From positions 1-27,568 of the IMG/VR virus record IMGVR_UViG_3300031695_000022: a stretch of DNA of 27,568 bases. One strand, given 5' to 3'. Shown piece after piece: positions 3,942 to 26,022 of this stretch; within the stretch, counting starts at the first letter, position 1, and the number at the start of each line of letters is the position of its first letter. The notes beneath the pieces were generated by a model that saw only the letters and a program-made list of their open reading frames with translations, was not told where the DNA came from and did not search any database. The translations under genes and the position numbers were made by a program. This stretch comes from a virus.

Positions 3942-3956
3942 AAATAAAGAACTAAT

Positions 3957-4847: not shown

Positions 4848-4848
4848 T

Positions 4849-7445: not shown

Positions 7446-8809
7446 TATTTTTAAATGGACATATATCAGGATTTGTAGATGAGTTAGTATCTTCTCTTAA
7501 CGATGTTGATAAAGCAGCCGCACTCGTAAATTACGAGGAGCAGGCGTCTTTAGGGTCTAACGACCTTGATTCTATAATAGGGATTCCTATCGTGTTTGTA
7601 TACCTTTATGACAATACAACCCCTGAAGGGCTTGCAGGTATAAAAAATGCGGACATAGGACTAGTAAGCGAGCTTCTTAAAGACAGGTTTAATGAAGCTG
7701 CAGAGTCTTTAAATGTAAAATTCTACCTAGCGAGTAAACGAGAAGCAGGCACGAATCTAGCAATACCTGGATCCCTATCTATTGATATAGCGGGGGACAC
7801 AACAGAGACAGAGTCTTATGGACTGCAGGGAGGTACTTATGGGTTTTACACTACAGTTAATACTTTCGATGACGGACTAGCTATGGGGGATGTAGACACA
7901 GGAGGTAACTATATTCGCGGCCTGAGAACCTCAACTATTGACTCTTTTTTCAATAATAACTTCTTCAATGGGTCTCAGGCTTTACCAATAATACTGACCA
8001 ATAGACTGAATGGTACCTCATTAGAGAGCACCGAAGGTAAATGGGGGTTTATGAGTGGCTGCCACCCTGCAGTAGGAGAGCTTCAGCCTTACTATGGGAT
8101 TTTACCTTACCACGCGTTAGGGCAGGATGTTTTAGATATGTTAGATATAGAGGTGCACACCCAAGCAGCAAGCACTACTACTCGTGACTCAGGTCAGGTA
8201 ATAGCGATGGATCCAGGTGTAGAGGATTTGATTTTAGAAGACTCCATACCCCTTATAAAACACTTTATAGGGTCTATGTTTGGTTTACTGCCTACGGGCA
8301 TGTCCAGTATGGACTCTATGCAGTTAGGTGTTTCATCCGACTGTAACTCTAGTGGGTGCATTATCACGGGAGGTTCAGGGGACTGTATCTCAGACACCCT
8401 CCCCTCAAGTAACTCCTTATACTTCTCTACATTTATAAGTGATATTTATACGGGAAACTGCGAAGAGGAAGCTACCGAGTCAGGGCACTACGAAAGTAAA
8501 GTTAATGCCATGAATTTTTTTAACACGGATTTAGGGATAATACCTACATATACCGCAGAACAAATACTCAAGATTAGAGGCGGATTTGCTACCTCAGGTA
8601 CAGTTTTACACTCACTGCAGAGCACCTTTGCGGATTTTGTAGATATAGCCGCACAGGAGGAGGACTACTGTGATAACTTTGAGAATTCGACGGCAGTTAT
8701 AGCTTTTAGGAGGGTTTCTAAAAGCGTAGATTTAAAGGAGGAGGCGGAAAGCTTTAACTCCGTTATAGGTAAGATAAAAACATTGTGTAACTATATAGTT
8801 TATAAGTAA
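7442..8809 (+). CDS. Degenerate M43 (pappalysin-like) metallopeptidase homologue, probable virion protein
   Basis: I read this 455-residue protein as an inactive relative of M43 peptidases. The order of landmarks fits the family. First comes IPIVFVYLYD (48-57, compare 'iPVVfHV'), then a helix with ELLKDRFNEAAESLNVKFYLAS (77-98, compare 'qi..LN..f.....i.F.LA'). Next is IKHFIGSMFGLLPTG at 272-286 in place of l.HExGHxxGLxHTf, then GDCISDTLP (313-321, compare GD.v.DTP). VNAMNFF (354-360) fills the Met-turn place, followed by YTAEQ (370-374, compare FT..Q). In the zinc motif only the first His (H274) remains; the catalytic Glu is F275, the second His is S278 and the third is P284. There is no signal peptide. 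It overlaps the next gene by one base (TAATG), and that gene encodes an M43 protein with an intact site. The role is probably structural or binding; catalysis is very unlikely. Confidence 0.65.
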   Translation: MIFLNGHISGFVDELVSSLNDVDKAAALVNYEEQASLGSNDLDSIIGIPIVFVYLYDNTTPEGLAGIKNADIGLVSELLKDRFNEAAESLNVKFYLASKREAGTNLAIPGSLSIDIAGDTTETESYGLQGGTYGFYTTVNTFDDGLAMGDVDTGGNYIRGLRTSTIDSFFNNNFFNGSQALPIILTNRLNGTSLESTEGKWGFMSGCHPAVGELQPYYGILPYHALGQDVLDMLDIEVHTQAASTTTRDSGQVIAMDPGVEDLILEDSIPLIKHFIGSMFGLLPTGMSSMDSMQLGVSSDCNSSGCIITGGSGDCISDTLPSSNSLYFSTFISDIYTGNCEEEATESGHYESKVNAMNFFNTDLGIIPTYTAEQILKIRGGFATSGTVLHSLQSTFADFVDIAAQEEDYCDNFENSTAVIAFRRVSKSVDLKEEAESFNSVIGKIKTLCNYIVYK

Positions 8810-11800
8810 TGGGTAAGTTTAAAAACAACACAAAAGTAGATGCACATCCAAACGAGTTTTGCGCACATGATATTATAAAGGAAGATCAAGAACCAGTACT
8901 ATCCCCTGAGGATAGGGAGGCGCTGAGGGTGGAGGAAGCTATTGTTCGTACACGACTAAAGAAGTACAATGACAAAGTAAGGTCAAATACACGAGCATTC
9001 ACCCCCCTAACAGAACCTTATCAGGATTATGCGGATTCGGAGCTTATTTATATACCTTTAGTATTTCATCAGTTTTCTAATAATGACCCTGAATGGTGGT
9101 ATAGCACCTCTAATCTTCCAGCAGGACATACTGACTCTACCTACCCAGAGGAATTTTACATAGAGGTAGTTGATTATTTAAATGCCTACTTGGATGGTAC
9201 AAACCTCCCTGAGATAGGTAATTTAGGTGCGCATAAGTTTCATCCTGATCACGGGGTTGTAAGCAAGCTTAGGTTTAAAATAGCTACCCACCTTCCTAGT
9301 ACTTACGTATCTAACTTTCTGTCCACTACGCCTAACCACAGTTTTGTGGAAATGGGAGCACTGAACGGGGAGACTAGTTTTTACCATACTAACCCTGCGA
9401 TAGAGGCTGCCGTAGCAAGCGCAGATGCCGCCGTAGCTGTAGCTCTAATAGCTAAAGACGCTATCTATAATGCCCAGATAGAAGCGGGAAAGACTGAAGG
9501 TGAAGCCTTAACAGTACTTTTCCAGTCTGACGCCTACAAGGCGTACTCAGACGCAATTTACATACAATCTCTTGGAGGACTGATGGAGTGCGGACCTAAC
9601 GGAGCTATACTTACTTATAATATAGACGATCTTGATTCATGCAAGATGGCGCTTATGCACGCACTTGAAGTAGAGGATTCGAGTTTATACCCCACTGCGT
9701 GTTCTGACGCGGCCTGCCTAGACAATCTGTCAGATGGTGGGGCCTGCAAGTCTGAGCCTACCACTCCTTTTGGGATGGTGTCGGGAGCTAGGAAGGACTA
9801 CTACGGTTCCCTGTATAAGCATGCAGAGGAAGTGGGCGGTATGGGGAATAGGATTCCTGTTATGAATGTATGGACCACTATTGGACAACTTCAGCAATCA
9901 ACTCTCTGGAGCGGTTTAGGGTTTCAGCCAGGCGGTACACATAACGGTAATGTGTATATGGATCAAAGCACTAGGTTTGAGGGCAGCTCTTCTTTTTACG
10001 CTGAAATACTACTTCACGAGTTAGGGCATGCCTTAGGGTTACCTCACACCTTTCAGGGAGGGGCTGTACGCTCCTTAAAAAACAAGGTTGTCCCAGCATT
10101 CAAATTCCCCCTAGTTGACCACACTTATATTGAAGACGCAGGAGCTTCTTATTTATCGGCTGTAACCTTTGGGTACTCCCATTCAGGTTGCGATGAAAAT
10201 GTTAGAATTATATCGGAAGTAATAAGTGACATAACTATTGGGGATTTATTCCACACTATGGGTGCCTATACCCCTGCGGGGAACGGGTACTCTTCGGGGG
10301 AGGAGGAGGATGATTCTTTCGCAATCCCTATCTCTAAATTAATAGGATTTGAAGGGGAGGGAATGTCTCTACTAGGATCTTTAGATTGTATTTTAAATGG
10401 CACTCCTCTCCTAGTTACTTTTTCGGGTGCATACTACATGAATATATCAATGAGCACTCTTGAGGAGATGCGGGCACTACCTCACGACTTTGTTGTAGCC
10501 CCCGCAGGAAGTGAGATAAGTTTTATGCCATTCCATTATGGTTTGAGGAAATACATGCGAATAAACTGGGAAGAAGGAGACTGGGCTACAGGGGATCATA
10601 TGACTATACCTATAAACGTAACTCCTCAAGGTTCTTTTGTAATAAATATTATGTATAATAAGGTGTACGATGATAATATGCCTTACAACCTTGAGTTTAG
10701 AGTTACCTTGGACGGCGAAGAAGTTATTGTAGGTACAACGGAGGGTGTAGGGGGAGGCCCATGGGAGGACGCTATAAGTTACTCTCTCGATGTAGCTAAT
10801 GCATTACCTGAAGTATCACTGTCGGGTATAACTGATGTGAGTGTATATTCCTCTACTGCCATTGGTGTGCAGGATTTTTCTGTAGTAGGGGGGTCTTTAA
10901 ATTCTATTGATGTAGTTATAGAAGAAGATCATGCGGATTTATCTGTGGATGAAGCAACTTTTGTAAATTTATTTTACAGCGAGATTCTTAACAGTATTGA
11001 TATAAACAGTAAGGCAGCTTTCCAAAGATCTTTTGCTGATGGGGTTATACTTAAAAATACAGCCTCAACCGCGGGTAATGGAAATTCATTTTCTGATGCA
11101 GAGCAAAGCCGTAGAATCTCTTTATGGGAGCAGACTTTAAACCTACCTAGTTTCTGGGGAGGGAGTGTTGACGAAACACAAGTTAACTCTCAAGGGAACG
11201 CTTCCCTAGTATTTAATAAAACCATAACAGAGGAGGCTTACTCGGATCTTGAGAGTTTGGAGATAACAAATGACCTAAACACTCCTGAAACTAACTTCCA
11301 GTTCACCTCAGTTACAGGTGTCCCCGCTATACTAGTCTACAGCTCCTCCGTTGAATACCAGAATCAATCCTACTGGGATAAGATTCATATACCTGTAAGT
11401 ACTTCGGTATCGCCTTTAGGGGATGTATATTTAGTTATAGGCTTCTCTCACTTTGAGCGGCCTATAGCTGTAACACAGGTCTTTACTTACGGAGGAGACA
11501 CTAGGCAATCCTACGGGGTTAGCGATCTAAATGATGACCTAGAGTTGATTATACCTATTGGAGATGTTTCCAGTATCGTAATCTCCCCTAATATAACCCC
11601 AAACCCAATAGAGGAATACTCTATTATAACATCTATAAAGACTACAGTAACTGGGAGTCTTATCAAAACAAAGACCCACGTTCCTTTTTGTCACCCAAAT
11701 GGAGACGGATCTACTTCTGATGTGTTTGATGAGTTTTGGCATATTAACTTTAATTGGTTAGATGAGAATTACCCCGTTTACCCAGACAACTGGCCTACAG

Positions 11801-13329
11801 ATAAAGCTTATAATCAATTTTTAGACGACGGAGTAACTCCTCTATGTCCTTGCCTGTATGCAACACAGTCTTATACTCTTTACAACAGCTTCAGAACTAA
11901 TATCCCTATAGAAGGGTCTTCGTTTTTAAAAACAATAGCGAATATGTATGAGTTTACGGGGTATTTTTATGCAGGATTCTGGAGGTCTATATTTGATACG
12001 GAGAGTATGTACGAACAGTCCCATATGGACTTCTCTAATACCAGGGATGTACTAGCTAATGGGCATGCACCTTTATTTGGGTATTATGGGTTTTCTCCTT
12101 ATCAAGGGATGCCAGCATCCTTCAAATTAAACTTTGATGCGGATTCTGAGGATTTCTATATATACGATGATTTACTCTCCGATACTCCTAGAGTAATTAC
12201 AAGTGGGAAGACCTCGTATTCAGAGCTACTAACTAGAGTTATGTTGGGGAGCTCAGCTCCTGAAGACGATAACTATAATCCGTTTAAAGTAGATGTAGCG
12301 GACGACATAACAGATCCGTACCTATTTAGTATGGACTACCTAAATGAGGACAATCCTTTCCATGGAACACAGACTTCTGTGGGGGTTGTTGATGTAAGGT
12401 TCATGCACCATGCCATGAACTATAACAGGTACGTGCAACCTATCGTAGATGGGGAATTCACTTTCAGCCAGGAGGTAATGTCCGCTAAAAGGATTTTATA
12501 CAGCCCTGAAGGGATATTTAGGGTGGAGGCTATCTACGATGGAGGTAGAGGTAAGTGGGGGTTTATAGATAGATTCTCAAAATTAACAGACTTTAAAAAC
12601 TCCTCTTCAACCTCTCCTGATATTCAGACCGCTCTGCAGGAGATAACCGATCGTGTAGTTGCTTTCGAACCTGACGCTCTCTTTGGGTGTACGGATGTAG
12701 ACGCAATTAACTACAATTCTACTGTTACGTATAATGATGGCAGCTGCATGTTCCCAGGAGATGATTGTCTTCAGGATACACTAGTTATAGAGATATGCCT
12801 GGACCAAAACCTACTTACATGCAACACAATAGTGGATGAGAATATAATAAACTCTTTCTTACCTGGCGAAGAATTCAGCGAACTTCACTACACACTCGAA
12901 CATCCTTACGTTGAGAATTGCGTAGGAGGGGGTATTCAGTACCATATAAACAATGCTGAAAAATGTGTTTATGGAGAGTGGGGTGTAGAAGGGTGTCTCC
13001 TGGTAGGAGACACTACCCTGGAAGATATACCTGCGGAGGCTCTAAGCCTAGACTGCCCTGGAGGAGCGCGATACACTATAACTTCTAATACCTATACTTC
13101 GGGAGGTATGTACTTTGACGGTACGGGAGCTAGTTATACGGGTAACTACTCCTTCCGAAGCGACAATCTCGCATACTCAGGAAGTGCTCATACCTCTGGT
13201 GTAAGGTTGTATACAGAGAAACAGCTATCTGTACCTAAGACGTCTTCAGATTCTTTACTTGCTTTAGCAAAAAAGTTTGAAAAAATACGAAAAAATATTG
13301 AAAATATTTGTAAATTTGTAAAATTATAA
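8809..13329 (+). CDS. Large tail/adhesin protein with an M43-type metallopeptidase domain apparently split by a ~700-residue insertion
   Basis: The 1506-residue product begins like secreted M43 peptidases: a short 'FCAHDIIKED' segment with a Cys at 18 (compare the family's CGT start), a Glu/Arg helix, then ELIYIPLVFHQF (78-89). The zinc site is intact at 403-413, HELGHALGLPH followed by TFQGG, with E404 as the expected general base. The usual nearby DTP and Met-turn motifs are not found there. Good candidates occur far downstream, as DTPR at 1125-1128 and HHAMNYNRY around M1203, followed by FTFSQEVM, so about 700 beta-rich residues seem inserted in the domain. An alternative Met-turn is M484 (FHTMGAY). 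One GCTD...DGSC repeat lies at 1293-1313. The last 40 residues are Lys-rich and helical. No signal peptide is seen, so it is presumably a virion protein acting on host surface or virion proteins. Confidence 0.72.
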   Translation: MGKFKNNTKVDAHPNEFCAHDIIKEDQEPVLSPEDREALRVEEAIVRTRLKKYNDKVRSNTRAFTPLTEPYQDYADSELIYIPLVFHQFSNNDPEWWYSTSNLPAGHTDSTYPEEFYIEVVDYLNAYLDGTNLPEIGNLGAHKFHPDHGVVSKLRFKIATHLPSTYVSNFLSTTPNHSFVEMGALNGETSFYHTNPAIEAAVASADAAVAVALIAKDAIYNAQIEAGKTEGEALTVLFQSDAYKAYSDAIYIQSLGGLMECGPNGAILTYNIDDLDSCKMALMHALEVEDSSLYPTACSDAACLDNLSDGGACKSEPTTPFGMVSGARKDYYGSLYKHAEEVGGMGNRIPVMNVWTTIGQLQQSTLWSGLGFQPGGTHNGNVYMDQSTRFEGSSSFYAEILLHELGHALGLPHTFQGGAVRSLKNKVVPAFKFPLVDHTYIEDAGASYLSAVTFGYSHSGCDENVRIISEVISDITIGDLFHTMGAYTPAGNGYSSGEEEDDSFAIPISKLIGFEGEGMSLLGSLDCILNGTPLLVTFSGAYYMNISMSTLEEMRALPHDFVVAPAGSEISFMPFHYGLRKYMRINWEEGDWATGDHMTIPINVTPQGSFVINIMYNKVYDDNMPYNLEFRVTLDGEEVIVGTTEGVGGGPWEDAISYSLDVANALPEVSLSGITDVSVYSSTAIGVQDFSVVGGSLNSIDVVIEEDHADLSVDEATFVNLFYSEILNSIDINSKAAFQRSFADGVILKNTASTAGNGNSFSDAEQSRRISLWEQTLNLPSFWGGSVDETQVNSQGNASLVFNKTITEEAYSDLESLEITNDLNTPETNFQFTSVTGVPAILVYSSSVEYQNQSYWDKIHIPVSTSVSPLGDVYLVIGFSHFERPIAVTQVFTYGGDTRQSYGVSDLNDDLELIIPIGDVSSIVISPNITPNPIEEYSIITSIKTTVTGSLIKTKTHVPFCHPNGDGSTSDVFDEFWHINFNWLDENYPVYPDNWPTDKAYNQFLDDGVTPLCPCLYATQSYTLYNSFRTNIPIEGSSFLKTIANMYEFTGYFYAGFWRSIFDTESMYEQSHMDFSNTRDVLANGHAPLFGYYGFSPYQGMPASFKLNFDADSEDFYIYDDLLSDTPRVITSGKTSYSELLTRVMLGSSAPEDDNYNPFKVDVADDITDPYLFSMDYLNEDNPFHGTQTSVGVVDVRFMHHAMNYNRYVQPIVDGEFTFSQEVMSAKRILYSPEGIFRVEAIYDGGRGKWGFIDRFSKLTDFKNSSSTSPDIQTALQEITDRVVAFEPDALFGCTDVDAINYNSTVTYNDGSCMFPGDDCLQDTLVIEICLDQNLLTCNTIVDENIINSFLPGEEFSELHYTLEHPYVENCVGGGIQYHINNAEKCVYGEWGVEGCLLVGDTTLEDIPAEALSLDCPGGARYTITSNTYTSGGMYFDGTGASYTGNYSFRSDNLAYSGSAHTSGVRLYTEKQLSVPKTSSDSLLALAKKFEKIRKNIENICKFVKL
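12685..12747 (+). repeat. GCTD-NYN-DGSC repeat, copy 1 (in the 1506-residue protein)
   Basis: A 21-residue unit with GCTD at the start, INYN in the middle and DGSC at the end, residues 1293-1313. This unit is common in large secreted proteins of marine Flavobacteriales and presumably folds as a small disulphide-linked or metal-binding turn. Four further copies occur in the 2738-residue protein. Confidence 0.85.
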
Positions 13330-13336
13330 TATAACT

Positions 13337-14074
13337 ATGACAGCTAATCATACATCTATCTATAAGAAGTACCTACAGGCTAGACACGCCTTCACGGAGT
13401 ACACCTTGCAGTTTATTAAAAATATAAGTGGGGGATCTAAATCTAAAGAAAGAACAGTTCTATATAATACGATAGCTTCTTGGATAGATTTCGTAGGTAA
13501 CGCAGTCCCCAACCCTACAAGTAATCAGGGTAAGGCGCCTAATAAAAGTGAGTTTATAATTGCCCCCCTAAGTGTTGAGGGGCTTTCTATAATCCATCCC
13601 CCTGTAAATGTATTTTTAAAGGACGCTAAAGGGGTTAAAACTCTTATAGGACGATTCACCCCTGGGGTTTCTTCGGGTACCGTAGGCTCTCTTGCAGCAA
13701 TGTTTACTAACCACCCAGATTTAACAGCTTCCTTTAATTCGGATACATTCTATATAACTGTTAACTTCTCAGTAGGGGCTAAGTATAACGGAGGGCAGAT
13801 AGTGGTGTCTAGCACCGCAGCCACCATTCCTCATACCATTATGATAGCAGGAGGGGCAGACCCTGTGCTACCTACTCTAAACCTAACTGACTCAGAAGTA
13901 GCTAAAGTTGACAGAGTTCTTGACAAAATAGCAATCAACTTGGGTATAGAGTACTCGGATAAAAAATACCTTGAACTAGTTTCAGGCCCCTTCGAAAGAG
14001 AGGTAAAAACATCTTTAAAGATTGCAAATAACTTATCATTAACTGCTGAAGATGGTAGCCCATTAGACGTATAA
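13337..14074 (+). CDS. Tail-associated protein of unknown function (245 residues)
   Basis: I do not recognise this protein. It begins with a helical segment (about 1-50, YKKYLQARHAFTEYTLQFIKN) and continues with a beta-rich core that includes EFIIAPLSVEGLSIIHPPV and FLKDAKGVKTLIGRFTPG. It ends in a helical Asp/Lys-rich stretch (about 180-230, SEVAKVDRVLDKIAINLGIEY). There is no signal peptide or membrane segment. It sits seven bases after the giant peptidase-containing gene and eleven before the tail fibre gene, so it may be a fibre or adhesin attachment protein or chaperone. That role is inferred from context alone. Confidence 0.5.
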   Translation: MTANHTSIYKKYLQARHAFTEYTLQFIKNISGGSKSKERTVLYNTIASWIDFVGNAVPNPTSNQGKAPNKSEFIIAPLSVEGLSIIHPPVNVFLKDAKGVKTLIGRFTPGVSSGTVGSLAAMFTNHPDLTASFNSDTFYITVNFSVGAKYNGGQIVVSSTAATIPHTIMIAGGADPVLPTLNLTDSEVAKVDRVLDKIAINLGIEYSDKKYLELVSGPFEREVKTSLKIANNLSLTAEDGSPLDV

Positions 14075-14084
14075 TATATATAAA

Positions 14085-15581
14085 ATGAAAATATCTAATT
14101 TACCTAAAACATCTAAACCTAAAGGTTCAGATTTAATAACTATTGTTCAAGGGGCGACCACAAAAGTTATCAGCTTTAAAGATTTCATGGAGACAGTAAA
14201 TATGACTGCATCTAAAATATCCTCCGAAGTAAAAACTCTCAGGGCAGATCTATTTAAAAGAGCTATTGATAAAAACAACCCTGTATTCGTTAACTCTGTA
14301 AGAGTTCCTACCCCTAAAAACGCCAAGGATGCTGCTACAAAAGCATATGTAGATAAAAGCGCAATGCATAGGGTGAAGGTAGATGGGAGCACCTCTATCG
14401 CAGCCCCTCTTACTTACGGTAAGAAGTTTAAGTTCGGACCTAGGGATTTGGTTTCTAAGGATTATGCAGACTCTTTATTAGATAGTACATTAAAAACTGT
14501 AAAATATTTAAACGCAAGTGCATATCCTAAAGCTTCTGTAGGGGATGTTTTTATCTCAAATCAGGAATATAAAAAATTCGCAGGTAATGGCCCCACTTTA
14601 CAGAAAGGGGACATACTTATATGCCTAGAAGATAGTCCTGGAGGAACACATAGTTCTTCTATATCTCAGTTTGCAATAGTAAACACTAATGTTGAAGAGG
14701 CTACTGAGAATGTAATAGGAATGGTTAAATTTTCTACAGACGAAGAGGTATTAAACTTCTCTTCAGATATGTCAGCATTAACCCCTAAGAAGTATAAAGA
14801 CTCGCTACTAGCTAGTAGTAGTTATAACAGAAAACTTATAACTACAACTACATATGCAGCTACAGAGATAGATAAAGGTATCCTAGCTGTAGATAACCGC
14901 AGAGGGGCTTCTGTTATTACGCTCCCTGCTGTTGCAGGATTAAAAGAGCCTGGCTTATTTAAACTAACTATTAAGGATGAGTTTGGTCAAGCAGACGTTA
15001 GAGCTGTAACAATTAAATCTACGGGGTCATCTATAGATGGTAAATCTTCTATAGTGTTAGCTAATAAATACCAAGCTGTAACTGTATACAATGATGGTAA
15101 AGATTACTATATAGAAAACAATACTCATACTGACGGAGAGATGTCAGATAACGTACTACGCTCAGGAGTAGTGTACCCCTCGATAAACAACGTTAAGGAG
15201 TCTTTATACTCTACAGAGATAGATTTAGCTCAATTCGATGTAGGGCAGGGATTTAAAATAACTGCTTCAGGATTCTTTGCAGCCAACACTAATACAAAAT
15301 CAGTTACAATTGATGTAGGAGGAATTTCTACGGTAGCAAACACTACTACAACTGCCCCAAACGCTAAGAGTTTTGTGGCAACTGTAACTATATTAAAAGA
15401 GGCTAGGTATGCTGTAGCGTACGGATCTATGCTTATAGATGCTGTAGCGGCCGACACATACCTAACTAATGGCCTTAACGTGGATTGGGGTACGTCAGTA
15501 GATGTAGCCATAACAGGTAATGCAGCGACAACTAATACGGATATTCAGATATATTCATTTACAGTAGAACCTTTAAAATAG
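14085..15581 (+). CDS. Tail fibre protein
   Basis: The 498-residue product shows several classic fibre signatures. The start (ISNLPKTSKPKGSDLITIVQG, residues 3-23) matches the 'i..Lp....sD.~~ivqgg.t.~is~~~l' segment of phage fibres and their baseplate-binding ends. KNAKDAATKAYVDKS (78-92) is the 'P.n..DAatKaYVD' fibre motif, with a second, weaker copy at about 116-132. NVIGMVKFSTDEE (209-221) followed by ALTPKKY (231-237) corresponds to the 'GvvrlAt..e......a.tP..~' fibre repeat. Residues about 254-348 resemble the ITLP...IKDE.G.A....I...GssIDG.....i...y..v.vy.dG..yy module found at many fibre tips. The C-terminus (about 370-498) is a Thr/Ala-rich beta domain, likely the receptor-contacting or trimer-locking tip. 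The protein should be a trimer. Confidence 0.8.
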   Translation: MKISNLPKTSKPKGSDLITIVQGATTKVISFKDFMETVNMTASKISSEVKTLRADLFKRAIDKNNPVFVNSVRVPTPKNAKDAATKAYVDKSAMHRVKVDGSTSIAAPLTYGKKFKFGPRDLVSKDYADSLLDSTLKTVKYLNASAYPKASVGDVFISNQEYKKFAGNGPTLQKGDILICLEDSPGGTHSSSISQFAIVNTNVEEATENVIGMVKFSTDEEVLNFSSDMSALTPKKYKDSLLASSSYNRKLITTTTYAATEIDKGILAVDNRRGASVITLPAVAGLKEPGLFKLTIKDEFGQADVRAVTIKSTGSSIDGKSSIVLANKYQAVTVYNDGKDYYIENNTHTDGEMSDNVLRSGVVYPSINNVKESLYSTEIDLAQFDVGQGFKITASGFFAANTNTKSVTIDVGGISTVANTTTTAPNAKSFVATVTILKEARYAVAYGSMLIDAVAADTYLTNGLNVDWGTSVDVAITGNAATTNTDIQIYSFTVEPLK

Positions 15582-15587
15582 AAAATA

Positions 15588-18500
15588 GTGGTTAATATTA
15601 TAAGTACTTCAGGAGTATTCGCTCCATTACTAGATGCTGTAAACACAGTTAAAGCAGGGACAGATAACGTTTTAGTTATTAAATACTCCTACGATGAAGC
15701 ATCTTTAAGCTCTCCCGCTTCAAGGCTATTACTTTCAGAGCATTTTAAAATAGATATTGAGAACACGCTGTTTCAGTGGGAGGATTTTATATCTAATCTG
15801 TACAGCAATAAGGTACACTTTAAAGGTAACCTAACTGTTCAGTTTAAACACACTGCCCTAGGGGATGAAGACTTATTATTTAGACTATCTCACATAGATT
15901 CTAATGTCCAGATAACACAGAAAGGTATAACTTTCAATAACTCTGCTGAGTGGGGTACAACTATAATTACTAATAAACTTGAGATAATGTCCTACGCTAT
16001 ATATGCGGTAGGATCTTTTTTAGGTTTAGGCGACACTACAACTAACTCCCCTATGAATAGGTTTAGACTTGCTCAAGGGTTTAAATCTTCTGTGGGGGTA
16101 TCTTCGGATGAAAATGGAGTTATAACCACCTCTGCCTTAGCTAGATACAAATCGCTAGCCGCTCACTTTAAGAGAGTGTTTGGAGGGATAAATAATACAG
16201 TAGCTAAGGTGTATGGATGTACGGACTCAAGTGCCTCTAACTTTAACTCTTCAGCAAACACTGAAGATGGATCTTGCGTGGAAACTCAAGAAGAAGTTAC
16301 TACACACCCTGCATCTAGGATGTACATCCCCAACAGAGATTATGCTGGAGGCGTGTCCTCCCATAAGGTTATTTGGTTAGGAGGCCCTGGAACTACTCTT
16401 CATTACTTGGGTGATAATGGTATTGAGGAGCTTGATAATTATTATGCTGCACCCACACCTTATTCAGAGGAACTCGCAGGCAGCGTCTCAGGGGTGCTAT
16501 CATTAGATGGGGGGGCTTTGATTAATATACTAAATTATCAAGAGCCTGCTAACTGCCGTACAGAGATATGGAATAGGAATGGAGGGATACTAAAAGCGGC
16601 TGGCACAGCTTATACAAGCTATGTAGATACTACTGATTTTACAATACTTTCCAAGGTTGAGGGTGTTTTAGCCCTTACTTGCTGGCACGCAATAAACAAA
16701 CTTTATAAGTATTATATAGGTCTTGAGAGTACTGCAGACGATTTTTCAGGGTTTGACTGTGTCAATCCTGATTTCCCTTTTGGGGAGGACCTCGGAGGGG
16801 CACAGGGAGTTAACGTGCACTCTGCGTTAGATATTATTGCAACCACAGGCAACGACCAATCCCCTACGAGAGCGCATATTAATCAGTTTTTTAATTTTGA
16901 CTCCCCCACTCTCGCGTCTGATGCGGAACCTATAAATCATTCATGGGCCCTTACAAGTGAGGAAGGTCTGGTGAACGGTACTTTTAGAACCACTAGAAGA
17001 GCGGCGATTGTTAGTTCTGCCCCATTCTCGCCTACTATTGATACAGCTCAATTCGACTTCTTCACTCGCTTTTACGCAGAGGTTAAGACTATCTCTATAT
17101 CCCCCCTTCAAGATAGTTATCAGGTAATCAGAGAGGGAGGGCAAGGATTTGCCACCTCGAGTAACACTCTGCTAATAAATGACGCACCTGGCTATGAAGA
17201 GGTTGGGTTTGAGGATATAAGTAGATCGAGAGCTGCTTTTGCATACAATACAAACTCAACTGAGGATGGGTGGAGATATGCGATCCAACCTATGGTTGGG
17301 TACTCTTTTGTGGGAGATAACCCTACAAAATCTATGGGGTTATTGCAGTTAAGCTCTAAACAGTGGAGTAAAGCTAGCGGGCGCTTTGCGGGTACGGATT
17401 ACTTTTCTGAAACGAATAGAATTATATTTCAAAATGAGGAGTACATCACTGAGGATGCAAGTGCTCCTATAGATACAAGTGGGGGTTCTCCTTTATTTGA
17501 CATGAGAATACTTTCTTCGGAAAATGCGGTTCATACGTTTTCCCCACGACTGGGCTCAATGGGTGCCGCACCGATTACTAATGCACTTGACTTTGTTATT
17601 TCCAAAAGACTTAGGGAACTTACTGGGCAGGACTACGAATTAGCTGGCGTCCAATACATCACTTCGCTGGAGTTTCTTTCTTTCACAGCAAGTAATTCAA
17701 GTAACCCAGGAGTTGGTAAGAAGCTAGCTGTTATAGGGACTATGTATGGGATGCTCCTTACCTTTATAGATAACATTACAGGTAAAATGCTATCCCCTGC
17801 ATTTACAGGAGGGCTAGAGTTGCAGATACCTGCAGGAGATGACTCCTTGTTGGGGTATTCCTCCTCTGAGTTTACAGAGGGAGGGTTTAGAATGAAGACC
17901 TTCGTAATATCCCCTATGGATAACTTTATTTACGCCATAGCAGAGGACCCTGACACAGGGGATTCACATATAATCGTATACGATATAACATCTTTAAGCT
18001 ATGCTTATATATTAGATAACGCTAGAAGTACTCCAAACCCATTTGACGGAGAGTTAACTAGCGTTGTTGTTGGGGTAGATGGGTGTGTTTATTTTTACTC
18101 GGTAGGATCTTCTGATTACATAAAAGTGAATAACCCCGACTCTCAGGAAAGTGTAGATATACTGCTTGCTTTTCCGTCCTCTTTAATTCAAGAAGTTGGT
18201 GTAACTATACATCATACACCTAAGATAGAGGTTATAGATCTATTAAAAAACTCCCCTTCCCTGGATAAATACCTGGTGGGTCTTGATAGGTTTAACCTGG
18301 GTGACGCAATGGAGGAAACTCCTTTTGAAGCGGGAGAATGGAATGACCCTAACATATACCGACAATTAAATGTTCTACCTGCTGTAGATAAAGGGGCGGG
18401 AGCTACTTTTCAGACAGGAGACTATGAAAGGATAATCGCAACACGATTAGTGGGTGACGGTGTAGATCCAATAGCCCTTCGAATAGATATTAACAATCTA

Positions 18501-21500
18501 AACTCTTCGGGATCAACCCCTAACTGGGAAGCTTTAGAGGGTATAAGTACTGAGGGCTCTACCAGAATGCTCTCTTTAGGGAACAGTCTGCTAGGAGCAG
18601 TAACCGACGGGGGGGGTAGAATCACTGTACTCGATAGGACTGGAAACACTTTAGGGGTTATCCAAGATGCAACCAGCGAGACTAACGAATTAATAGGGGT
18701 TGAATCTTACGTAGGCGCGGACGGTTTTGGGTTTAGAGCTCTTATTGAGACGGACACCCAGATTGCCTCAACTACTATTTACTTCGTTCATGACGAAAAT
18801 CAAACAGCCATTAAGCCTCTGGGATTATCTTTAGGGTTCGTGGCTAATGGCTCTGTTGGCGCTTTTAACGTTGCGGCAAATGAGGTTATAATGGATACGT
18901 GCATAGTAAACACAGGTCTTAGCAATACAGCCTCGATGTATATTGCAGTTAGTACAGGGGAGACTATCGATATAAATAAGGTGATATTTGACGGTAACAC
19001 TACCACTCAGGTAGGGGCAGTAGCCTCTTATGTGCTCCCTGTACCCTCCACAGTATTTTCTACAGATGTTCAGCGAAACTTTGAGGACTGTATACTTAAA
19101 TACTCCGCAGATTCGGAGGGAGAATACTTCCACATAACGTACTATAATATCACCCCTAAGGCTACAGGAGATGACCTTAACCCACTTTATAATGAGGGAG
19201 AGGTGATAGTTAAGATCTTTGTTCCTACAGGGGAGGCTGAATCCACCTCTAGTACGTACGCCATAGAGGATCTTGAGTTAGGGATTGACCATGGTGCCCC
19301 TATAAAGGTGATTTCTATGGAAACCCCTGTAGCAGGTAAAGCCATTGTTTTAGTTAAAGGGGGACCTGCCAGGGATGTTAAAGGGTTGTTTGCATGGAAT
19401 TCATTAGGGTTTTTACCTATAGAAATAATGTCTACTTTCGTGGCTTTCCCTTCGGATTTTGATAGTACTGAGGACGTACCTCTATATGACGGATCCCTAG
19501 ATTACCTTAATATTGTAAGTATGCTTAGAGTTCCTGATGGTAGCATATACCTAGGTACAAGTATGCCAGACAACTCACTGTCAAGAATTATAAACCCTGC
19601 ATCAGATTCTCCTAGATACGCTATTAGAATGTCTGTTAATACTGATGTACCTGAAGGGTATGGACCAATAAAATTCCCACATAGAGGGGAATTTGGTGGC
19701 GCTATATCAGGCCCTACAGGCCCTGAGGACCCTGTAATCCCTATGTCTCCAGGATGTACAACTGCAGGGGCGTGTAACTACAACCCTAATGCTACGTGGG
19801 ATGACGGATCGTGCGCATTCCCTGATCCAGATCTTACTGCGTCTTGCGGTAATGGCGGATGTAGTGGTGAGGATCCATATGTATTCCAAAATAACTGTGG
19901 TGACTGCTTTTCTAATTTTGCATCGGAAGATACAGGATGCTATGTCTGCCCTGAAGGCGTAGATTTAGGTGGAGGGGTAATGTCTAAAGGGTGTATCGGG
20001 TCTGAGACCCCTGACTGGTGTTATGAGGATCCAAGTGCTTGTACTATATACGGATGTATAGATACATACGTTCCTGAGTTTTCACAAGCGTTACTTTGTA
20101 ACGGGGTTCTATCTAACCCAAGTGAATACCCACCGTTAGGGACTACATATTTCCCTGGAAATCATGATGGCTCGCTGTGTAACTATTCGACTAATGCATG
20201 TGAGTGTGATGGTATGAACTCATTGACACCTATAATTGCTGTAGCTCCTTTCATTAACTGTACAGACTGTGTAGAGTCTCCTACCGTCCCCAACACTCTG
20301 GACGGTACCTACTGTTCATGCGAACAGTGGGCGAGAGAGGGGACGATTCAGCAGACGCAGCAGGATATTAACAGTCTTTATGCCCAAGGTGTTTGTAACT
20401 GCGAGGGAACTATACTGCCTGAGGCTGGATGTAACTGTTCTGGAGGCGTGTTAGATAACATTAATTACTGTGACTGTGGGATACCTACGGATACCTACGG
20501 TATCTACTGTGACTGTGAGGGTAAAACTATATTAGGAGATGGCTACGAATGTTTAGATCCTGACGGAACAGTTTTGTGCGACGAATACCCTACCCTACAC
20601 TTCTTAGATGCAGATGGGGATGGCTATTATGACGCCAACACTCAGTCATATAAATGTTCTACATACAATGTAGGTGCAGGAGTAACACCTTCAGACGGGC
20701 CTGTAGCTACGGGTGTAGCGGGGGCGGACCTATGGATAGAATCAACAGACGCACTAGCTTTAGGGCCAGACGACTGTGATGGGTTCTCGAATGATTGTAA
20801 TTATTGTATTCCTTATACTGACCCTGCTAACGGTGATTTCAGTTTGGTTTCTGCACCCTATGAATTGGATGATTGTGGTGTCTGCTTTGATCCCACAGGA
20901 GCTCCCCCTGTTTATGCTTGTGATTGTGCTGAAATCCCAGAAGGTTACTGCGACTGTGATGTAGCAGACTTAGGTTGTCTTTGTGATAACGGAGTAGCTA
21001 ATATTCCTTACGAGTTATCAGGAGGAGAAGGTGGTGTATGTCATTTATGTGACTCATCCGCTGACGGATCCCCTCAGCTTTGGGATTACTGTATGGATTG
21101 TGATGGGACTTCAAGTCTTAATAGCGTTACAGGATTCATAGAGTCAGGTGTTGCGGGATCAGACCTGAGATGTGTTTGCGGTGAAGACACAGTTGACGGT
21201 ACTGTATGTTGCCCTGGATATAAATACGACAGTTGTGCTTACGGCGGCGTCGGAGGGTGTGTTCTAAATGCACTAGATTTAACTGCTACAGGATGTGATG
21301 GAGGTTGTAATACCGCTATTGTCCCTGACGTATGTGGAGAGTGTAATGGATCTTTAGAGGAGATACCTCAATGTGGTTGTGGGACTACCAATACTTTTAT
21401 TGTAGGTACAACTACTTTTGGAGAAGTTTGCGATTGTAATGGAAACACCGTAGACCAGTGTGGAGTCTGTAACGGTGCTGGTATAGAATGTGTAGGTTGT

Positions 21501-23804
21501 ATGGATGAGGAGGCTTATAATTTTAATCCTTTATCTCTTGTAGGTTGCGATGAATGCTGTGAATATTATGGGCTTACAAACCCAGATGATTTCCCTGTTG
21601 TTGATTTTGAAGGGTTCCCAGTGGATCCTGCTAATATGGAGGGGGTTTTGACTGCGGATAGTAACTCGACAATATCAACGTCTTTACCGTTCGTGGCGGG
21701 GCAAACTGCAACTCCTGATCTTGTATTTAATTCATTTACTCTAAATGATGGTAATGTTATTCATATACCTACAGATAATGCCATGTACACTTCTAAGTGT
21801 CAGGTAATCACTGTTGGTAACCATGAGCTACGTCTGGACAACCCTCAAGCTAATGCAGAGGTAACTCACTACTATACTACTGTAGTTAATAATATGAGTG
21901 ACGGTGTGACAGGTGACGCTAATATTACTAATGAAGCTTTAGAGGATGTAGCTGTTTATAACCTTGCAGGTAAGGTTATAAACTTCTATTTTAGAATAGA
22001 GGGAGCTATAAACCCAGAATACTCTAATATTGCGGAGAGGTTTAGCCCGTATCTTAATTCTCATATATTTTCAATCGCTACGGGAGACGGCGGGAATAGT
22101 ACTACGTTAGAGTCGGATTTGGTAGATGATACTCCTATAACCGCTACGCTTACAGGCCCTGTTGGTCAATCTATATCTGAGGACCACCCTAACTACCATG
22201 TGTATCAGGTCACAATGGCAATGACTGATTATTCAATCAATGAGATCGAGGCAGGGATAAACCTAGCAATACTATTCTCTAACACTACAGAGGGAACAAA
22301 TAATACTGATATATATGTAGCACACACGTGCCCTACAGATGATGGGATAGACTATATAAATAGTTCTAGTGCTACTTGGGATGTTTACTTAACTGCAGAG
22401 CAGTTTGTAGGGGTAGCGGCAGGAGTTGATCTTGTTGTTGTGATAGAGGAGGCGACGCCTACTTCACCTCTGGTTACAGTAACATATAAGCTTAATGAAA
22501 CTGCTTCGTGTACTGATGCATGTTTAGATGGAGGTAATGACTATGCTATAATGTGTAGTGATCCTGAGGCAGAAAATTATGTAGAAGTTTTAGGAGTATG
22601 CCAGGAGTACCAAGCGTTCTCTGGTGGACACCCATGTACCTACCCTGAAGTATTTAACTACTACTGCTCTAACCCTTTATATGTGGAGTTCGAGGAGGTA
22701 GACTCAAATATACCAGGCACCTGGGTACCTGATACATCTTTATGTATAAATCCTACAACATCTGTTGAGACTGAGGTAGAAACCATAGAGGGAACTTACC
22801 TTATAGAGATAGAGCATATCGGAGATGTACCACCTGTAGTAGAGTATGATATTTATACAAAAACAGGAAGGATATTACAAGATGAGACAGGAGACATAGA
22901 AGTTAGAAGGTCTAAAACTGGAAACGTTACAAAGACGGTGAGAACAATTAAAAGTGTAGACCCTTGCGCAGGATTTACACCTATAGCCTTTAGAACTAAC
23001 GACGAATGGTTGCGAGCTAGATTTACTATTATGAAAGATAGTGTGGCTATTTGGGGCTTAGATTTTGGAGGCCTAAATCAAGAACACTCTCTAACTTATG
23101 GAGCATCTTCTACTGTAGATGGTAGTGCTATATTGAAATTAGGAGCTTCTACCGATTGTATTGCAGGATGTGGAGACACTACTGTAAGTGTTGTAGGGTG
23201 TACAAGATCTGTTCAAAAGGATGTAAAAGAGTTTACAGACTTTACGGTAGAGATAATGACAGAAATATCTCCTGCAGTAGCTTATGAAGAGACTACATTT
23301 ATAATATACGATATTACTACAGGGGAAAGATTAGTGGATCTTGTAGAGGGTGTTGCCAGTGGTGAGACTGTGGTGAAGAAATTTAAACTTTCTGAAACTA
23401 CTGCTTTAGCTGTAAAGGTTATATCTAAAAACATGCTTATCTACAGAATAATAGACGAGCAGGGTAATATCTTAAAGCATAAATCTATATACGATTCTTC
23501 TTACTTTGAGCCGTTCACATTCCAACTAGAGGAGTACGGATGTACAGATAAGGACTCTCCTAACTACAATGCAAATGCAGTAGTAGATGATGGAAGTTGT
23601 ATAAGTAAAGGTGTGTACGCTTGTGTTAAGGAGGCTTTATTTAGTATAGACTCTCTTCAGTGTGACAGCAGCGAATCTAACAAAGCTCTTCAGGTATACG
23701 CAGTGTACCAATCTTATAAGGAGGCCTTAAAGGGCAAGAACAAAGTTAAAATAGAAATGTACGGAGATAAATTATCAGATCTTTGTAATTGTAAAACATG
23801 TTAA
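15588..23804 (+). CDS. Giant Cys-rich tail/adhesin protein with an N-terminal inactive matrixin-like domain
   Basis: This 2738-residue protein starts at GTG six bases after the fibre gene and has no signal peptide, so it is probably carried on the virion. Residues about 25-160 follow the matrixin plan: FQWEDF (62-67), NLTVQF (81-86), GITFNNSAEWGT (113-124), then YAVGSFLGLGD at 139-149 in place of HExGHxxGxGH and SPM (154-156) at the Met-turn place. All three His and the Glu are replaced (Y139, A140, S143, D149). Residues about 640-860 have propeller-like strands (KKLAVIGTMYG, MKTFVISPMDNFIYAI). GCTD-type repeats lie at 210, 1389, 1970 and 2651. Residues 1389-1990 are Cys-rich and EGF-like, with FLDADGDGYYD (1672-1682) resembling MopE or thrombospondin type 3 calcium loops and CDCNGNTVDQCGVCNG (1948-1963). 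The C-terminus ends in a helical Cys module with LCNCKTC. It is probably the main host-binding protein. Confidence 0.72.
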   Translation: MVNIISTSGVFAPLLDAVNTVKAGTDNVLVIKYSYDEASLSSPASRLLLSEHFKIDIENTLFQWEDFISNLYSNKVHFKGNLTVQFKHTALGDEDLLFRLSHIDSNVQITQKGITFNNSAEWGTTIITNKLEIMSYAIYAVGSFLGLGDTTTNSPMNRFRLAQGFKSSVGVSSDENGVITTSALARYKSLAAHFKRVFGGINNTVAKVYGCTDSSASNFNSSANTEDGSCVETQEEVTTHPASRMYIPNRDYAGGVSSHKVIWLGGPGTTLHYLGDNGIEELDNYYAAPTPYSEELAGSVSGVLSLDGGALINILNYQEPANCRTEIWNRNGGILKAAGTAYTSYVDTTDFTILSKVEGVLALTCWHAINKLYKYYIGLESTADDFSGFDCVNPDFPFGEDLGGAQGVNVHSALDIIATTGNDQSPTRAHINQFFNFDSPTLASDAEPINHSWALTSEEGLVNGTFRTTRRAAIVSSAPFSPTIDTAQFDFFTRFYAEVKTISISPLQDSYQVIREGGQGFATSSNTLLINDAPGYEEVGFEDISRSRAAFAYNTNSTEDGWRYAIQPMVGYSFVGDNPTKSMGLLQLSSKQWSKASGRFAGTDYFSETNRIIFQNEEYITEDASAPIDTSGGSPLFDMRILSSENAVHTFSPRLGSMGAAPITNALDFVISKRLRELTGQDYELAGVQYITSLEFLSFTASNSSNPGVGKKLAVIGTMYGMLLTFIDNITGKMLSPAFTGGLELQIPAGDDSLLGYSSSEFTEGGFRMKTFVISPMDNFIYAIAEDPDTGDSHIIVYDITSLSYAYILDNARSTPNPFDGELTSVVVGVDGCVYFYSVGSSDYIKVNNPDSQESVDILLAFPSSLIQEVGVTIHHTPKIEVIDLLKNSPSLDKYLVGLDRFNLGDAMEETPFEAGEWNDPNIYRQLNVLPAVDKGAGATFQTGDYERIIATRLVGDGVDPIALRIDINNLNSSGSTPNWEALEGISTEGSTRMLSLGNSLLGAVTDGGGRITVLDRTGNTLGVIQDATSETNELIGVESYVGADGFGFRALIETDTQIASTTIYFVHDENQTAIKPLGLSLGFVANGSVGAFNVAANEVIMDTCIVNTGLSNTASMYIAVSTGETIDINKVIFDGNTTTQVGAVASYVLPVPSTVFSTDVQRNFEDCILKYSADSEGEYFHITYYNITPKATGDDLNPLYNEGEVIVKIFVPTGEAESTSSTYAIEDLELGIDHGAPIKVISMETPVAGKAIVLVKGGPARDVKGLFAWNSLGFLPIEIMSTFVAFPSDFDSTEDVPLYDGSLDYLNIVSMLRVPDGSIYLGTSMPDNSLSRIINPASDSPRYAIRMSVNTDVPEGYGPIKFPHRGEFGGAISGPTGPEDPVIPMSPGCTTAGACNYNPNATWDDGSCAFPDPDLTASCGNGGCSGEDPYVFQNNCGDCFSNFASEDTGCYVCPEGVDLGGGVMSKGCIGSETPDWCYEDPSACTIYGCIDTYVPEFSQALLCNGVLSNPSEYPPLGTTYFPGNHDGSLCNYSTNACECDGMNSLTPIIAVAPFINCTDCVESPTVPNTLDGTYCSCEQWAREGTIQQTQQDINSLYAQGVCNCEGTILPEAGCNCSGGVLDNINYCDCGIPTDTYGIYCDCEGKTILGDGYECLDPDGTVLCDEYPTLHFLDADGDGYYDANTQSYKCSTYNVGAGVTPSDGPVATGVAGADLWIESTDALALGPDDCDGFSNDCNYCIPYTDPANGDFSLVSAPYELDDCGVCFDPTGAPPVYACDCAEIPEGYCDCDVADLGCLCDNGVANIPYELSGGEGGVCHLCDSSADGSPQLWDYCMDCDGTSSLNSVTGFIESGVAGSDLRCVCGEDTVDGTVCCPGYKYDSCAYGGVGGCVLNALDLTATGCDGGCNTAIVPDVCGECNGSLEEIPQCGCGTTNTFIVGTTTFGEVCDCNGNTVDQCGVCNGAGIECVGCMDEEAYNFNPLSLVGCDECCEYYGLTNPDDFPVVDFEGFPVDPANMEGVLTADSNSTISTSLPFVAGQTATPDLVFNSFTLNDGNVIHIPTDNAMYTSKCQVITVGNHELRLDNPQANAEVTHYYTTVVNNMSDGVTGDANITNEALEDVAVYNLAGKVINFYFRIEGAINPEYSNIAERFSPYLNSHIFSIATGDGGNSTTLESDLVDDTPITATLTGPVGQSISEDHPNYHVYQVTMAMTDYSINEIEAGINLAILFSNTTEGTNNTDIYVAHTCPTDDGIDYINSSSATWDVYLTAEQFVGVAAGVDLVVVIEEATPTSPLVTVTYKLNETASCTDACLDGGNDYAIMCSDPEAENYVEVLGVCQEYQAFSGGHPCTYPEVFNYYCSNPLYVEFEEVDSNIPGTWVPDTSLCINPTTSVETEVETIEGTYLIEIEHIGDVPPVVEYDIYTKTGRILQDETGDIEVRRSKTGNVTKTVRTIKSVDPCAGFTPIAFRTNDEWLRARFTIMKDSVAIWGLDFGGLNQEHSLTYGASSTVDGSAILKLGASTDCIAGCGDTTVSVVGCTRSVQKDVKEFTDFTVEIMTEISPAVAYEETTFIIYDITTGERLVDLVEGVASGETVVKKFKLSETTALAVKVISKNMLIYRIIDEQGNILKHKSIYDSSYFEPFTFQLEEYGCTDKDSPNYNANAVVDDGSCISKGVYACVKEALFSIDSLQCDSSESNKALQVYAVYQSYKEALKGKNKVKIEMYGDKLSDLCNCKTC
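16215..16277 (+). repeat. GCTD-NFN-DGSC repeat, copy 2
   Basis: Residues 210-230 of the 2738-residue protein: GCTD, SNFN and EDGSC in register with the other copies. It marks the boundary between the N-terminal matrixin-like domain and the large beta-rich region. Confidence 0.85.
18609..18616 (+). other. Run of eight G inside the giant adhesin gene
   Basis: An uninterrupted G8 encodes three glycines (DGGGR). Two further G7 tracts occur at 16509-16515 in the same gene and 5173-5179 in the adaptor gene. In AT-rich DNA such tracts are likely slippage sites; see findings. Confidence 0.6.
19752..19814 (+). repeat. GCT-NYN-DGSC repeat, copy 3
   Basis: Residues 1389-1409 of the 2738-residue protein: GCTTAGACNYNPNATWDD followed by GSC. 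This is the copy closest to the form found in bacterial secreted proteins (GCT...ACNYNP.A..DDGSC), and it opens the Cys-rich region. Confidence 0.88.
20466..20517 (+). repeat. Micro-duplications in the Cys-rich region
   Basis: The 13-mer TACTGTGACTGTG occurs at 20466-20478 and again at 20505-20517, flanking a perfect tandem 10-mer, ATACCTACGG, at 20481-20490 and 20491-20500. The outer copies encode YCDC twice. This looks like recent slippage or unequal recombination that adds Cys-containing units. Confidence 0.75.
21495..21557 (+). repeat. GCMD-NFN repeat, copy 4 (degenerate end)
   Basis: Residues from 1970 of the 2738-residue protein: GCMDEEAYNFNPLSLVGC, with the usual DGSC replaced by a CDEC-type end. 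It closes the Cys-rich region just before the next beta-rich domain. Confidence 0.7.
23538..23600 (+). repeat. GCTD-NYN-DGSC repeat, copy 5
   Basis: Residues 2651-2671 of the 2738-residue protein: GCTD, PNYN and DDGSC. It immediately precedes the C-terminal helical Cys module. Confidence 0.85.
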
Positions 23805-24502: not shown

Positions 24503-24715
24503 ATGGAGATATTCAAGAACGATAATAATTGGAACGAGAAAGCTATTGTAGGCTTTATAGCTTTTGCTATAATGTGCCTCATCATGGTAGCGGATCTGGC
24601 TACAGGATGGATGGGAGTCGAACTAGTAGTAAACGAATTTGTTTACGAAGCCTTTGTATGGGTTGTACTAGGATGCTTTGGTATATCAGGAGTTGAAAAA
24701 TTCGCAAAGAAATGA
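24503..24715 (+). CDS. Two-TM small membrane protein, holin candidate
   Basis: This 70-residue protein has a short charged N-terminus (MEIFKNDNNWNEK), TM1 at about 13-33, a short loop with GWMGVE, TM2 at about 45-64 and a Lys-rich end (VEKFAKK). Size, topology and place at the head of a cassette that ends in an endolysin fit a class II holin, which would open the inner membrane at lysis time. It overlaps the next gene by four bases (ATGA). A 3TM-holin family gene also lies at the window end, so one of the two may be an antiholin or have another virion-related role. The holin call rests on topology and context, since such proteins share little sequence. Confidence 0.6.
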   Translation: MEIFKNDNNWNEKAIVGFIAFAIMCLIMVADLATGWMGVELVVNEFVYEAFVWVVLGCFGISGVEKFAKK

Positions 24716-25740
24716 AGAAGTTATTATACATACTCCTATTTGCTAGTACTGTTGCTAATGCTCAGATGGGGTTCTCTCTATTTAGGTTTGCAACGTTCTA
24801 TGCGAGTTTATCTACAACGGCCCCATTCTCAGAGAACCAAGCTTTTATAGTTGATGGGATTGCAGGCTCTGGGCAGCTTGTTGAGATGACTGAAGTCAGC
24901 GCTCCTAATTATAATATAACAATAGGGCTTAGAAAGATAGCGCGTTTTGATTATCAAGTAAAACAAGGTAATTTTTACACGGGCTCAGAAGATGAGAGTA
25001 GTGACTACGCTACAATATCTAATGCACCTGGTTTAGAGTACTTGTTTAAGTACTCATCCATTCGTAATAGAGGGATGAAATTTAAACAGCAAGAATATAA
25101 GGTTAGATACATATCTGATCACCTAACATCGAAAGCTTCGTATGTGGATGACGGATTAATTAATCTTAAATATACTCTGGGCGAGGTTAGGCTACGTAAA
25201 AGTTTTGGTAATATCGACCTTACTTTAGGCGTAGCCCATCGTTCTCACCCTGTGTACGGATACTCCCCTGTTAATGAATGGTTCTCTAAGCCTGAGAATA
25301 AGCACTGGTGGCAGTTAGCTAACGAGTTCGGTTTCTACGGAGACGAGGATGAGTGTTGGACTAATGATGGTACATGTGTTGCAGTTTCAGATGTAGAATT
25401 TTATACCTACCATTTTACTGACGCGGTAGATGAATACAACAACCAACAACTTAACGCTTTAGGTCTTCAACAAGAAGTTTCTATGGTAGTGGGGGCTGAT
25501 TATTATCATTATTCAGACAAGTCTTGGGTGCATGCATGGGGTTCTGTGTATCCTGCACACAAAGGTTTGAGTGAATACTCCTACTCATACCCTGGGGTAA
25601 CGACGGAATGGGATATTGGTGTGGTGTTTGGTGTTAAATTTAACAAACATTTTAGTATCTTCGTAGAAGGAAGACACCTTAAGTACTGGGATATAAGATC
25701 TTATAATATGCAAACGGGAATAAATTATTTAATATTTTAA
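24712..25740 (+). CDS. Phage-encoded exported protein, outer-membrane beta-barrel-like
   Basis: This 342-residue protein has a clear signal peptide (MKKLLYILLFASTVANA with predicted cleavage before Gln18). The mature part has alternating strands (YNITIGLRKIARFDYQV, VRLRKSFGNIDLTLGVAHR, WDIGVVFGVKFNKHFSIFV) and ends in MQTGINYLIF, with a terminal Phe as in the BAM recognition signal of outer-membrane proteins. I infer a small outer-membrane barrel made in the infected host. It is tightly coupled to the holin candidate upstream and a one-TM coiled-coil protein downstream. Possible roles are outer-membrane disruption at lysis or blocking of the receptor against superinfection. It could also be a periplasmic beta protein. 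No family is recognised by name. Confidence 0.58.
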   Translation: MKKLLYILLFASTVANAQMGFSLFRFATFYASLSTTAPFSENQAFIVDGIAGSGQLVEMTEVSAPNYNITIGLRKIARFDYQVKQGNFYTGSEDESSDYATISNAPGLEYLFKYSSIRNRGMKFKQQEYKVRYISDHLTSKASYVDDGLINLKYTLGEVRLRKSFGNIDLTLGVAHRSHPVYGYSPVNEWFSKPENKHWWQLANEFGFYGDEDECWTNDGTCVAVSDVEFYTYHFTDAVDEYNNQQLNALGLQQEVSMVVGADYYHYSDKSWVHAWGSVYPAHKGLSEYSYSYPGVTTEWDIGVVFGVKFNKHFSIFVEGRHLKYWDIRSYNMQTGINYLIF

Positions 25741-25743
25741 TAG

Positions 25744-26022
25744 ATGGCTAAAGAATTAAGTGAAGACAGTGCAGTACAGATAAGTGTAAAAACTTTAGGG
25801 GGTATAGCAGTCGGAATAACAGCACTAGTGGGATTGTGGTTTACACTGCAGAACGATATAGCAGAAGCTAGAGAGTTACCTTTACCTGTAGACCCTGTTA
25901 TAACACGAATGGAGTTTGATATGAAGGATAAACTAATCCGCCAGACTATCATGAATACCCAGGAAGATGTTTCAGAGATGAAAGAAGACATGAAACTAAT
26001 TAAACAAAAGCTTTATGAATAA
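25744..26022 (+). CDS. One-TM coiled-coil protein, possible spanin-like or lysis accessory protein
   Basis: This 92-residue protein has a short N-terminus, one membrane helix (about 17-36, TLGGIAVGITALVGLWFTL), a Pro-containing linker (LPLPVDP) and a charged helix from about 54 to the end with heptad-like spacing (DMKDKLIRQTIMNTQEDVSEM). This N-in, C-out layout with a periplasmic coiled coil resembles inner-membrane spanins (Rz-like) or small holin-associated proteins. The next gene starts eight bases before its stop and encodes a secreted protein, which recalls the overlapping Rz/Rz1 pair. That partner has a signal peptidase I site rather than a lipobox, so the analogy is incomplete. Confidence 0.5.
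   Translation: MAKELSEDSAVQISVKTLGGIAVGITALVGLWFTLQNDIAEARELPLPVDPVITRMEFDMKDKLIRQTIMNTQEDVSEMKEDMKLIKQKLYE

Follow-up and report, generated by a model that had tools for sequence, protein, structure and literature searches.

An inactivated matrixin fold at the start of a giant protein in crAss-like phages, probably kept as a tail-appendage docking or assembly module

Pseudoenzymes are well known in animals; to our knowledge, few have been documented as modules that phages retain in their host-contact proteins. The CLCA metalloproteases with substituted catalytic sites (PMC3650047) and the iRhom pseudoproteases (PMC6451368) provide precedents in which catalysis was lost and the proteins were kept, and in Listeria a phage-derived metzincin is paired with a TIMP-like protein (PMC8235301). 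Among cultured crAss-like phages, Cellulophaga phage phi14:2 has, in the interval from its auxiliary capsid gene to its lysis genes, genes whose products MS/MS detected in virions. One MS-verified structural protein of this phage, gp081 (L133, 5364-7142), carries two HExxH motifs (HEFTH and HEFIH), and it is possible that it represents an unrelated zincin. No description of metzincins in crAss-like phages was found in the open literature, although subscription papers might mention them, and neither the crAss001 structural atlas nor a Crassvirales review mentions proteases or zinc.

The record analyzed here is a 27.6-kb virus record of 27,568 nucleotides (IMGVR_UViG_3300031695_000022), the whole of which we refer to as the window. 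Its major capsid protein is of the crassvirus type (36% identity over 99% to gut crAss-like phages) and its auxiliary capsid protein matches PF25650 (crAss_AuxCP; E 6e-11). As both are present, and in order, the window can be assigned as a fragment of a crAss-like phage. Downstream of the capsid genes lie all three of the metzincin-like genes considered here, in a gene block that corresponds to the virion and tail-appendage block of cultured crAss-like phages:

6870-7445, + strand: 191-aa protein, at the crAss001 tail-hub position between the auxiliary capsid protein and the appendage genes (synteny only)
7442-8809, + strand: 455-aa dead pro-pappalysin, with HFIGSMFGLLP replacing HExxHxxGxxH
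8809-13329, + strand: 1506-aa protein with an intact metzincin motif, HELGHALGLPH, at residues 403-413 and an N-terminal Cys18
13337-14074, + strand: 245-aa conserved protein of the same cluster, with homologs in relatives
14085-15581, + strand: 498-aa conserved protein directly upstream of the giant protein, 31-59% identical in all relatives
15588-23804, + strand: 2738-aa giant protein (ORF with GTG start), with the pseudo-matrixin domain at its N terminus

In crAss001, the position of the 191-aa protein is held by a tail-hub protein that docks the fibers (PMC10172136). The assignment of the window genes to the tail appendage is positional, since the 498-aa, 191-aa, and giant proteins have no significant similarity to crAss001 or phi14:2 proteins; a profile comparison of the 191-aa protein with phi14:2 gp98 was likewise not significant (E about 0.9). 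The 498-aa protein has no Pfam match, and by eye its N terminus looks like tail-fiber N termini.

A preliminary description had proposed, from the letters of the sequence, that a matrixin-like domain with every catalytic residue lost occupies 15660-16070. The strings it relied on are all present in the reading frame from 15588, namely, GITFNNSAEWGT at residues 113-124, YAVGSFLGLGD at 139-149, and TNSPM at 152-156. The domain does lie there, and it reaches slightly further, from 15588 to about 16202. Its features within the giant protein are as follows:

15588-16202 (end approximate), + strand: pseudo-matrixin domain, residues 1-205 of the 2738-aa ORF, supported by AlphaFold2, Foldseek, VIA-align, and relatives
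16002-16034, + strand: former zinc-binding helix and third-ligand position, with Y139, A140, S143, and D149 replacing H, E, H, and H
16050-16055, + strand: Met-turn equivalent P155-M156, within SPM at 154-156
16215-16277, + strand: first of the GCTD..NFN..A..DGSC repeats (residues 210-230), immediately following the domain (read from the sequence)

When supplied with a 12-sequence alignment (A1) and no templates, AlphaFold2 produced a model of the domain with a mean pLDDT of 86.6 and a pTM of 0.87. The model comprises a strand (27-35), a long helix (50-71), four further strands (82-88, 96-101, 107-109, and 113-117), a helix (133-145), a loop bearing S154-P155-M156, and a last helix (188-198), which is overall the metzincin order. 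All 50 of the PDB matches listed by Foldseek are matrixins, that is, MMPs and bacterial karilysin (best E 6.4e-6), and VIA-align superposed the model on MMP8 with a Z of 15.0 and an rmsd of 2.1 Å over 140 aligned residues at 14% identity, and on bacterial karilysin with a Z of 14.7. Among viral structures, matrix metalloproteases of insect viruses ranked at the top, and a few phage Zn proteases followed further down. With MMPs as the top matches of both methods, the domain has the matrixin (M10A) fold. No fold other than that of a metzincin was predicted for residues 20-165, and a structure overlay, which had been suggested as a check and was made here on MMP8, bears out the proposal, as do the Foldseek matches and the alignment.

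Searches that use sequence only gave much weaker signals. The A1 profile found MMP-12 among PDB sequences at an E of only about 0.5, in the expected register, such that Y-x-x-G-x-x-L-G-L is aligned with H-Q-I-G-H-S-L-G-L of MMP-12. Pfam Peptidase_M10 is weakly matched by 2 of 12 relatives (best E 0.0042), and the domain of the window itself has no Pfam match and falls short of the PF00413 gathering cut-off. These weak values would speak for a matrixin resemblance that is due to chance or to the small number of sequences aligned, yet such an origin is very improbable given a confident template-free model, uniform matrixin matches among the PDB matches listed at a Z of about 15, and a Met-turn and final helix that fall in the right register across relatives. 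A random match had also been called improbable at the outset; the pattern never arose when the 2738-aa protein was shuffled 20,000 times, but it was defined post hoc and the shuffles exclude letter coincidence only. The Met-turn is of the SPM/TPM type and its Met column is kept in most of the 12 relatives, though the zinc site is gone.

The loss of the catalytic residues extends to the relatives. Y139, A140, S143, and D149 stand in the sequence as first reported, and across the 12 sequences of A1, Glu never occurs at 140 and His never at 143 or 149, and the residues at column 139 are Y F H Y R H Q Y Y Y E Y, which includes His in 2 of 12. The matrixin motif HExxHxxGxxH thus lacks its Glu and its second and third His in 12/12 aligned sequences, and the conservation check proposed for the four positions in related phages gave, at 140, 143, and 149, the same answer as the window. 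A recent inactivation by point mutation was considered and rejected, as all relatives are dead; the pseudo-matrixin is old and clade-wide in these phages. Taken together, the matrixin fold and the inactivity of the domain are close to certain, and from its residues neither zinc binding nor proteolysis would be expected.

What has been conserved instead can be read from the alignment. The columns of residues 139, 140, 143, and 149 rank 88, 164, 158, and 96 of 190 in conservation, and the near-invariant residues belong to the framework (W64, Y72, F86, W122, G142, G177, and G199). In L100/L101 and L102, a deletion takes out the substrate-side strand, W122, and the Met-turn proline, and L097 is without part of this stretch. 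As catalytic columns drift, the framework holds, and the substrate-side stretch is deletable, we conclude that constraint acts on the scaffold. That an enzyme persists here, through a rebuilt metal site or some other chemistry, would be in keeping with the kept fold and with nothing else, and is the least probable reading, as the old active site offers no conserved polar residue in 12 sequences. A different proposal is that the dead matrixin acts as a receptor- or peptide-binding clamp, with the former cleft used to grip, and no longer to cut, a peptide or a host surface protein. The fold is kept with the cleft position open, the domain lies within a probable host-contact gene block, and rapid divergence of the cleft would suit a changing set of hosts; the same variability would be shown by a fast-evolving receptor-binding surface, and this counts against a docking explanation. 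The absence of the substrate-side strand with W122 from several relatives argues against a kept peptide-binding cleft, however, and the old catalytic positions have no shared conserved residue in A1, so that we regard a clamp as unlikely.

To place the domain in its phage context, relatives were collected through a capsid-protein scan of viral contigs (72 loci) followed by whole-record searches of those contigs. The first 221 residues of the giant protein have homologs in 11 records (24-44% identity), and further homologs occur in G006 (L102) and G037 (L109), one in each. The domain is thus present in 14 records including the window, or 13 other crAss-like contigs, a count in which G010 and G019 are nearly one phage. 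The intact-metzincin gene lies upstream in 14/14 records with the pseudo-matrixin and, conversely, the pseudo-matrixin is found in 14/14 records in which the live metzincin gene is accompanied by sufficient downstream sequence. In the fragments of the next clade (L050, L051, L055, L056, and L062; capsid protein ~65-68% identical), none of the three metzincin-like families was matched. Neither the window domain nor the 245-aa protein, when used as query in scans of viral contigs for close relatives, gave a match, and no match to the domain, the giant protein, or the live metzincin region was found among 50,697 phage records. Alignment A1 is too diverse to serve as a scan query, and scans with subsets of it brought no additional records. 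A scan of bacterial and archaeal genomes found no relative of the pseudo-matrixin domain, at a sensitivity that could miss a cellular source.

Full-length homologs of the giant protein measure about 2600-3300 aa, and Cys counts mark a Cys-rich middle at about residues 1351-2000. Repeats of the type GCTD..NYN..A..DDGSC occur at residues 210, 1389, 1970, and 2651 of the giant protein and are also found in the 8809-13329 ORF. They have no Pfam match and are typical of secreted proteins of marine Bacteroidota; together with the gene content, they suggest a marine origin of the phage. Most relatives carry the same repeat directly after the domain. In G002, the domain and its GCTD repeat make up an ORF of their own, of 253 aa, whose stop codon overlaps the start of the next gene as ATGA, and the remainder of the giant protein is divided among three more ORFs; the pseudo-matrixin module is therefore able to stand alone. 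BLAST hinted at a further pseudo-matrixin midway along the giant protein of L096, which was rejected, as only the GCTD repeat is shared.

The preliminary description presented a single odd domain, which is real, and overlooked that the upstream genes at 7442-8809 and 8809-13329 are metzincin-like too. The family profile of the 455-aa protein matches mirolysin (E 1.5e-4), and Pfam M43 is matched by 5 of its 17 relatives. Its AlphaFold2 model, of modest confidence (pLDDT 63), is similar to proulilysin (Z 20.2) and promirolysin (Z 19.1) with the pro-segment included, and at that confidence it has the pro-pappalysin fold. The catalytic Glu of HExxHxxGxxH is lost in 17/17 members of the family. All three His are retained only in L013, L018, and L065 (HSLGHMLGLVH, HSLGHILGLFH, and HTLAHMLGVPH), and an N-terminal Cys-Gly like that of promirolysin occurs in exactly these three, a coincidence with a chance of 1 in 680 under the assumption, not valid here, of independent sequences.

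By contrast with this dead neighbor, the 1506-aa protein retains HExxHxxGxxH, with H, E, H, and H invariant in 16/16 members of its family, and a zymogen-type pro-segment Cys near the N terminus (Cys18 in the window) is present in 15/16. Its Pfam matches to M10 (E 1.7e-4) and M43 (E 7.2e-4) are both under the curated cut-off, and the M10 match passes the cut-off in a six-frame search. From its residues, it is predicted to be a zymogen protease carried by marine crAss-like phages; G012 carries two live metzincin genes in tandem. By eye, the short C-terminal helices of the dead pappalysin and the live protein of the same genome are alike (f..v..KI..l[C/T]..i). In profile-profile comparison, the three metzincin-like families show weak similarity to one another, and for this reason we make no claim of duplication from one gene.

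With two metzincin-like neighbors, the picture becomes one of a conserved live/dead set. It could be speculated that the dead pair serves to regulate or present the live metzincin, as pseudo-protease partners in the manner of iRhoms toward ADAM17. Such regulation would agree with the co-retention of live and dead copies in every record where both are visible, with the pro-segment cysteine of the live one (15/16), and with the similar C-terminal helices of the dead pappalysin and the live protein. That similarity is by eye only, however, and does not include the giant protein, and co-retention is expected of any appendage genes; we consider regulation rather improbable. A broader and tentative idea is that the tail appendage contains a conserved three-part metzincin set, in which a live zymogen would be accompanied by two retired metzincins that build, hold, or switch it. 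If this is true, a single enzyme superfamily would supply most of a phage appendage, its live and dead members each having a fixed place, and the live zymogen protease of the set would cut the host surface on contact.

The window contains further genes downstream of the giant protein. The protein at 24712-25740 has a signal peptide and, behind it, a possible outer-membrane beta-barrel; it is conserved in relatives and has no Pfam match. At 26015-26383, a signal peptide precedes a thioredoxin-like domain (PF00085; E 1.7e-4, just under the cut-off). The protein at 26383-26892 has a signal peptide and a C terminus, YYDILGREVKP..GFYIASNGILTRKVYIDEIKR, which on visual inspection looks like a type IX secretion sorting domain, with database support that is sub-threshold only. 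This end has a homolog in L093 (14224-14772), and the L096 protein at 2519-5014 has such an end too. The Peptidase_M15_3 domain at 26876-27334 (E 5e-17) probably belongs to an endolysin.

Returning to the pseudo-matrixin, we favor, with a probability of roughly 0.6, an ancient inactivated matrixin that a marine crAss-like clade has kept as a docking or assembly module of the tail appendage. The docking role taken by itself is somewhat better than an even bet, and is suggested by the fold, the clade-wide loss combined with retention, the modularity in G002, the metzincin neighbors, and the position of the locus. The phage would have recruited metzincin domains into appendage proteins, of which one would be kept as a working protease with cysteine-type latency and the other two, having lost catalysis, as folded modules. 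The first 200 residues of the giant protein would then be a docking or assembly unit, located in the virion, where it might anchor the giant protein to the appendage or order its assembly. The live neighbor might be made as a zymogen and, during adsorption, cleave a protein on the host surface. The "attachment or folding unit" and the "adhesin" of the preliminary description are plausible as proposals for its role.

When placed beside known systems, the locus resembles each of them in part. Its gene order is similar to that of crAss001 and phi14:2 (head, ring, and auxiliary capsid genes, and in phi14:2 also appendage genes), and none of the three metzincin-like domains was found in either phage. 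CLCA and iRhom proteins differ from the phage domain in being cellular, of other families, and without a virion link. The Listeria pair is similar in that a metzincin of phage origin is kept beside a partner gene, and different in that the partner is a TIMP-like inhibitor and not a dead metzincin, and that it is not described as a virion locus. In the present phages, the loss of catalysis is traceable across relatives, with a pappalysin slot that is without Glu in all and has the zinc His and the N-terminal Cys in three. Pappalysins (M43; mirolysin, ulilysin, and PAPP-A) share the pro-segment and catalytic-domain fold with the 455-aa protein, whereas the catalytic Glu is missing from all 17 relatives of the latter. 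Similarly, matrixins (MEROPS M10A; MMP-8, MMP-12, and Tannerella forsythia karilysin) are like the pseudo-matrixin in the whole catalytic-domain fold, the order of strands and helices, the Met-turn, and a final helix ending in (F/Y)G, whereas the phage domain has shed HExxHxxGxxH and the zinc ligands and stands at the start of a 2738-aa phage protein.
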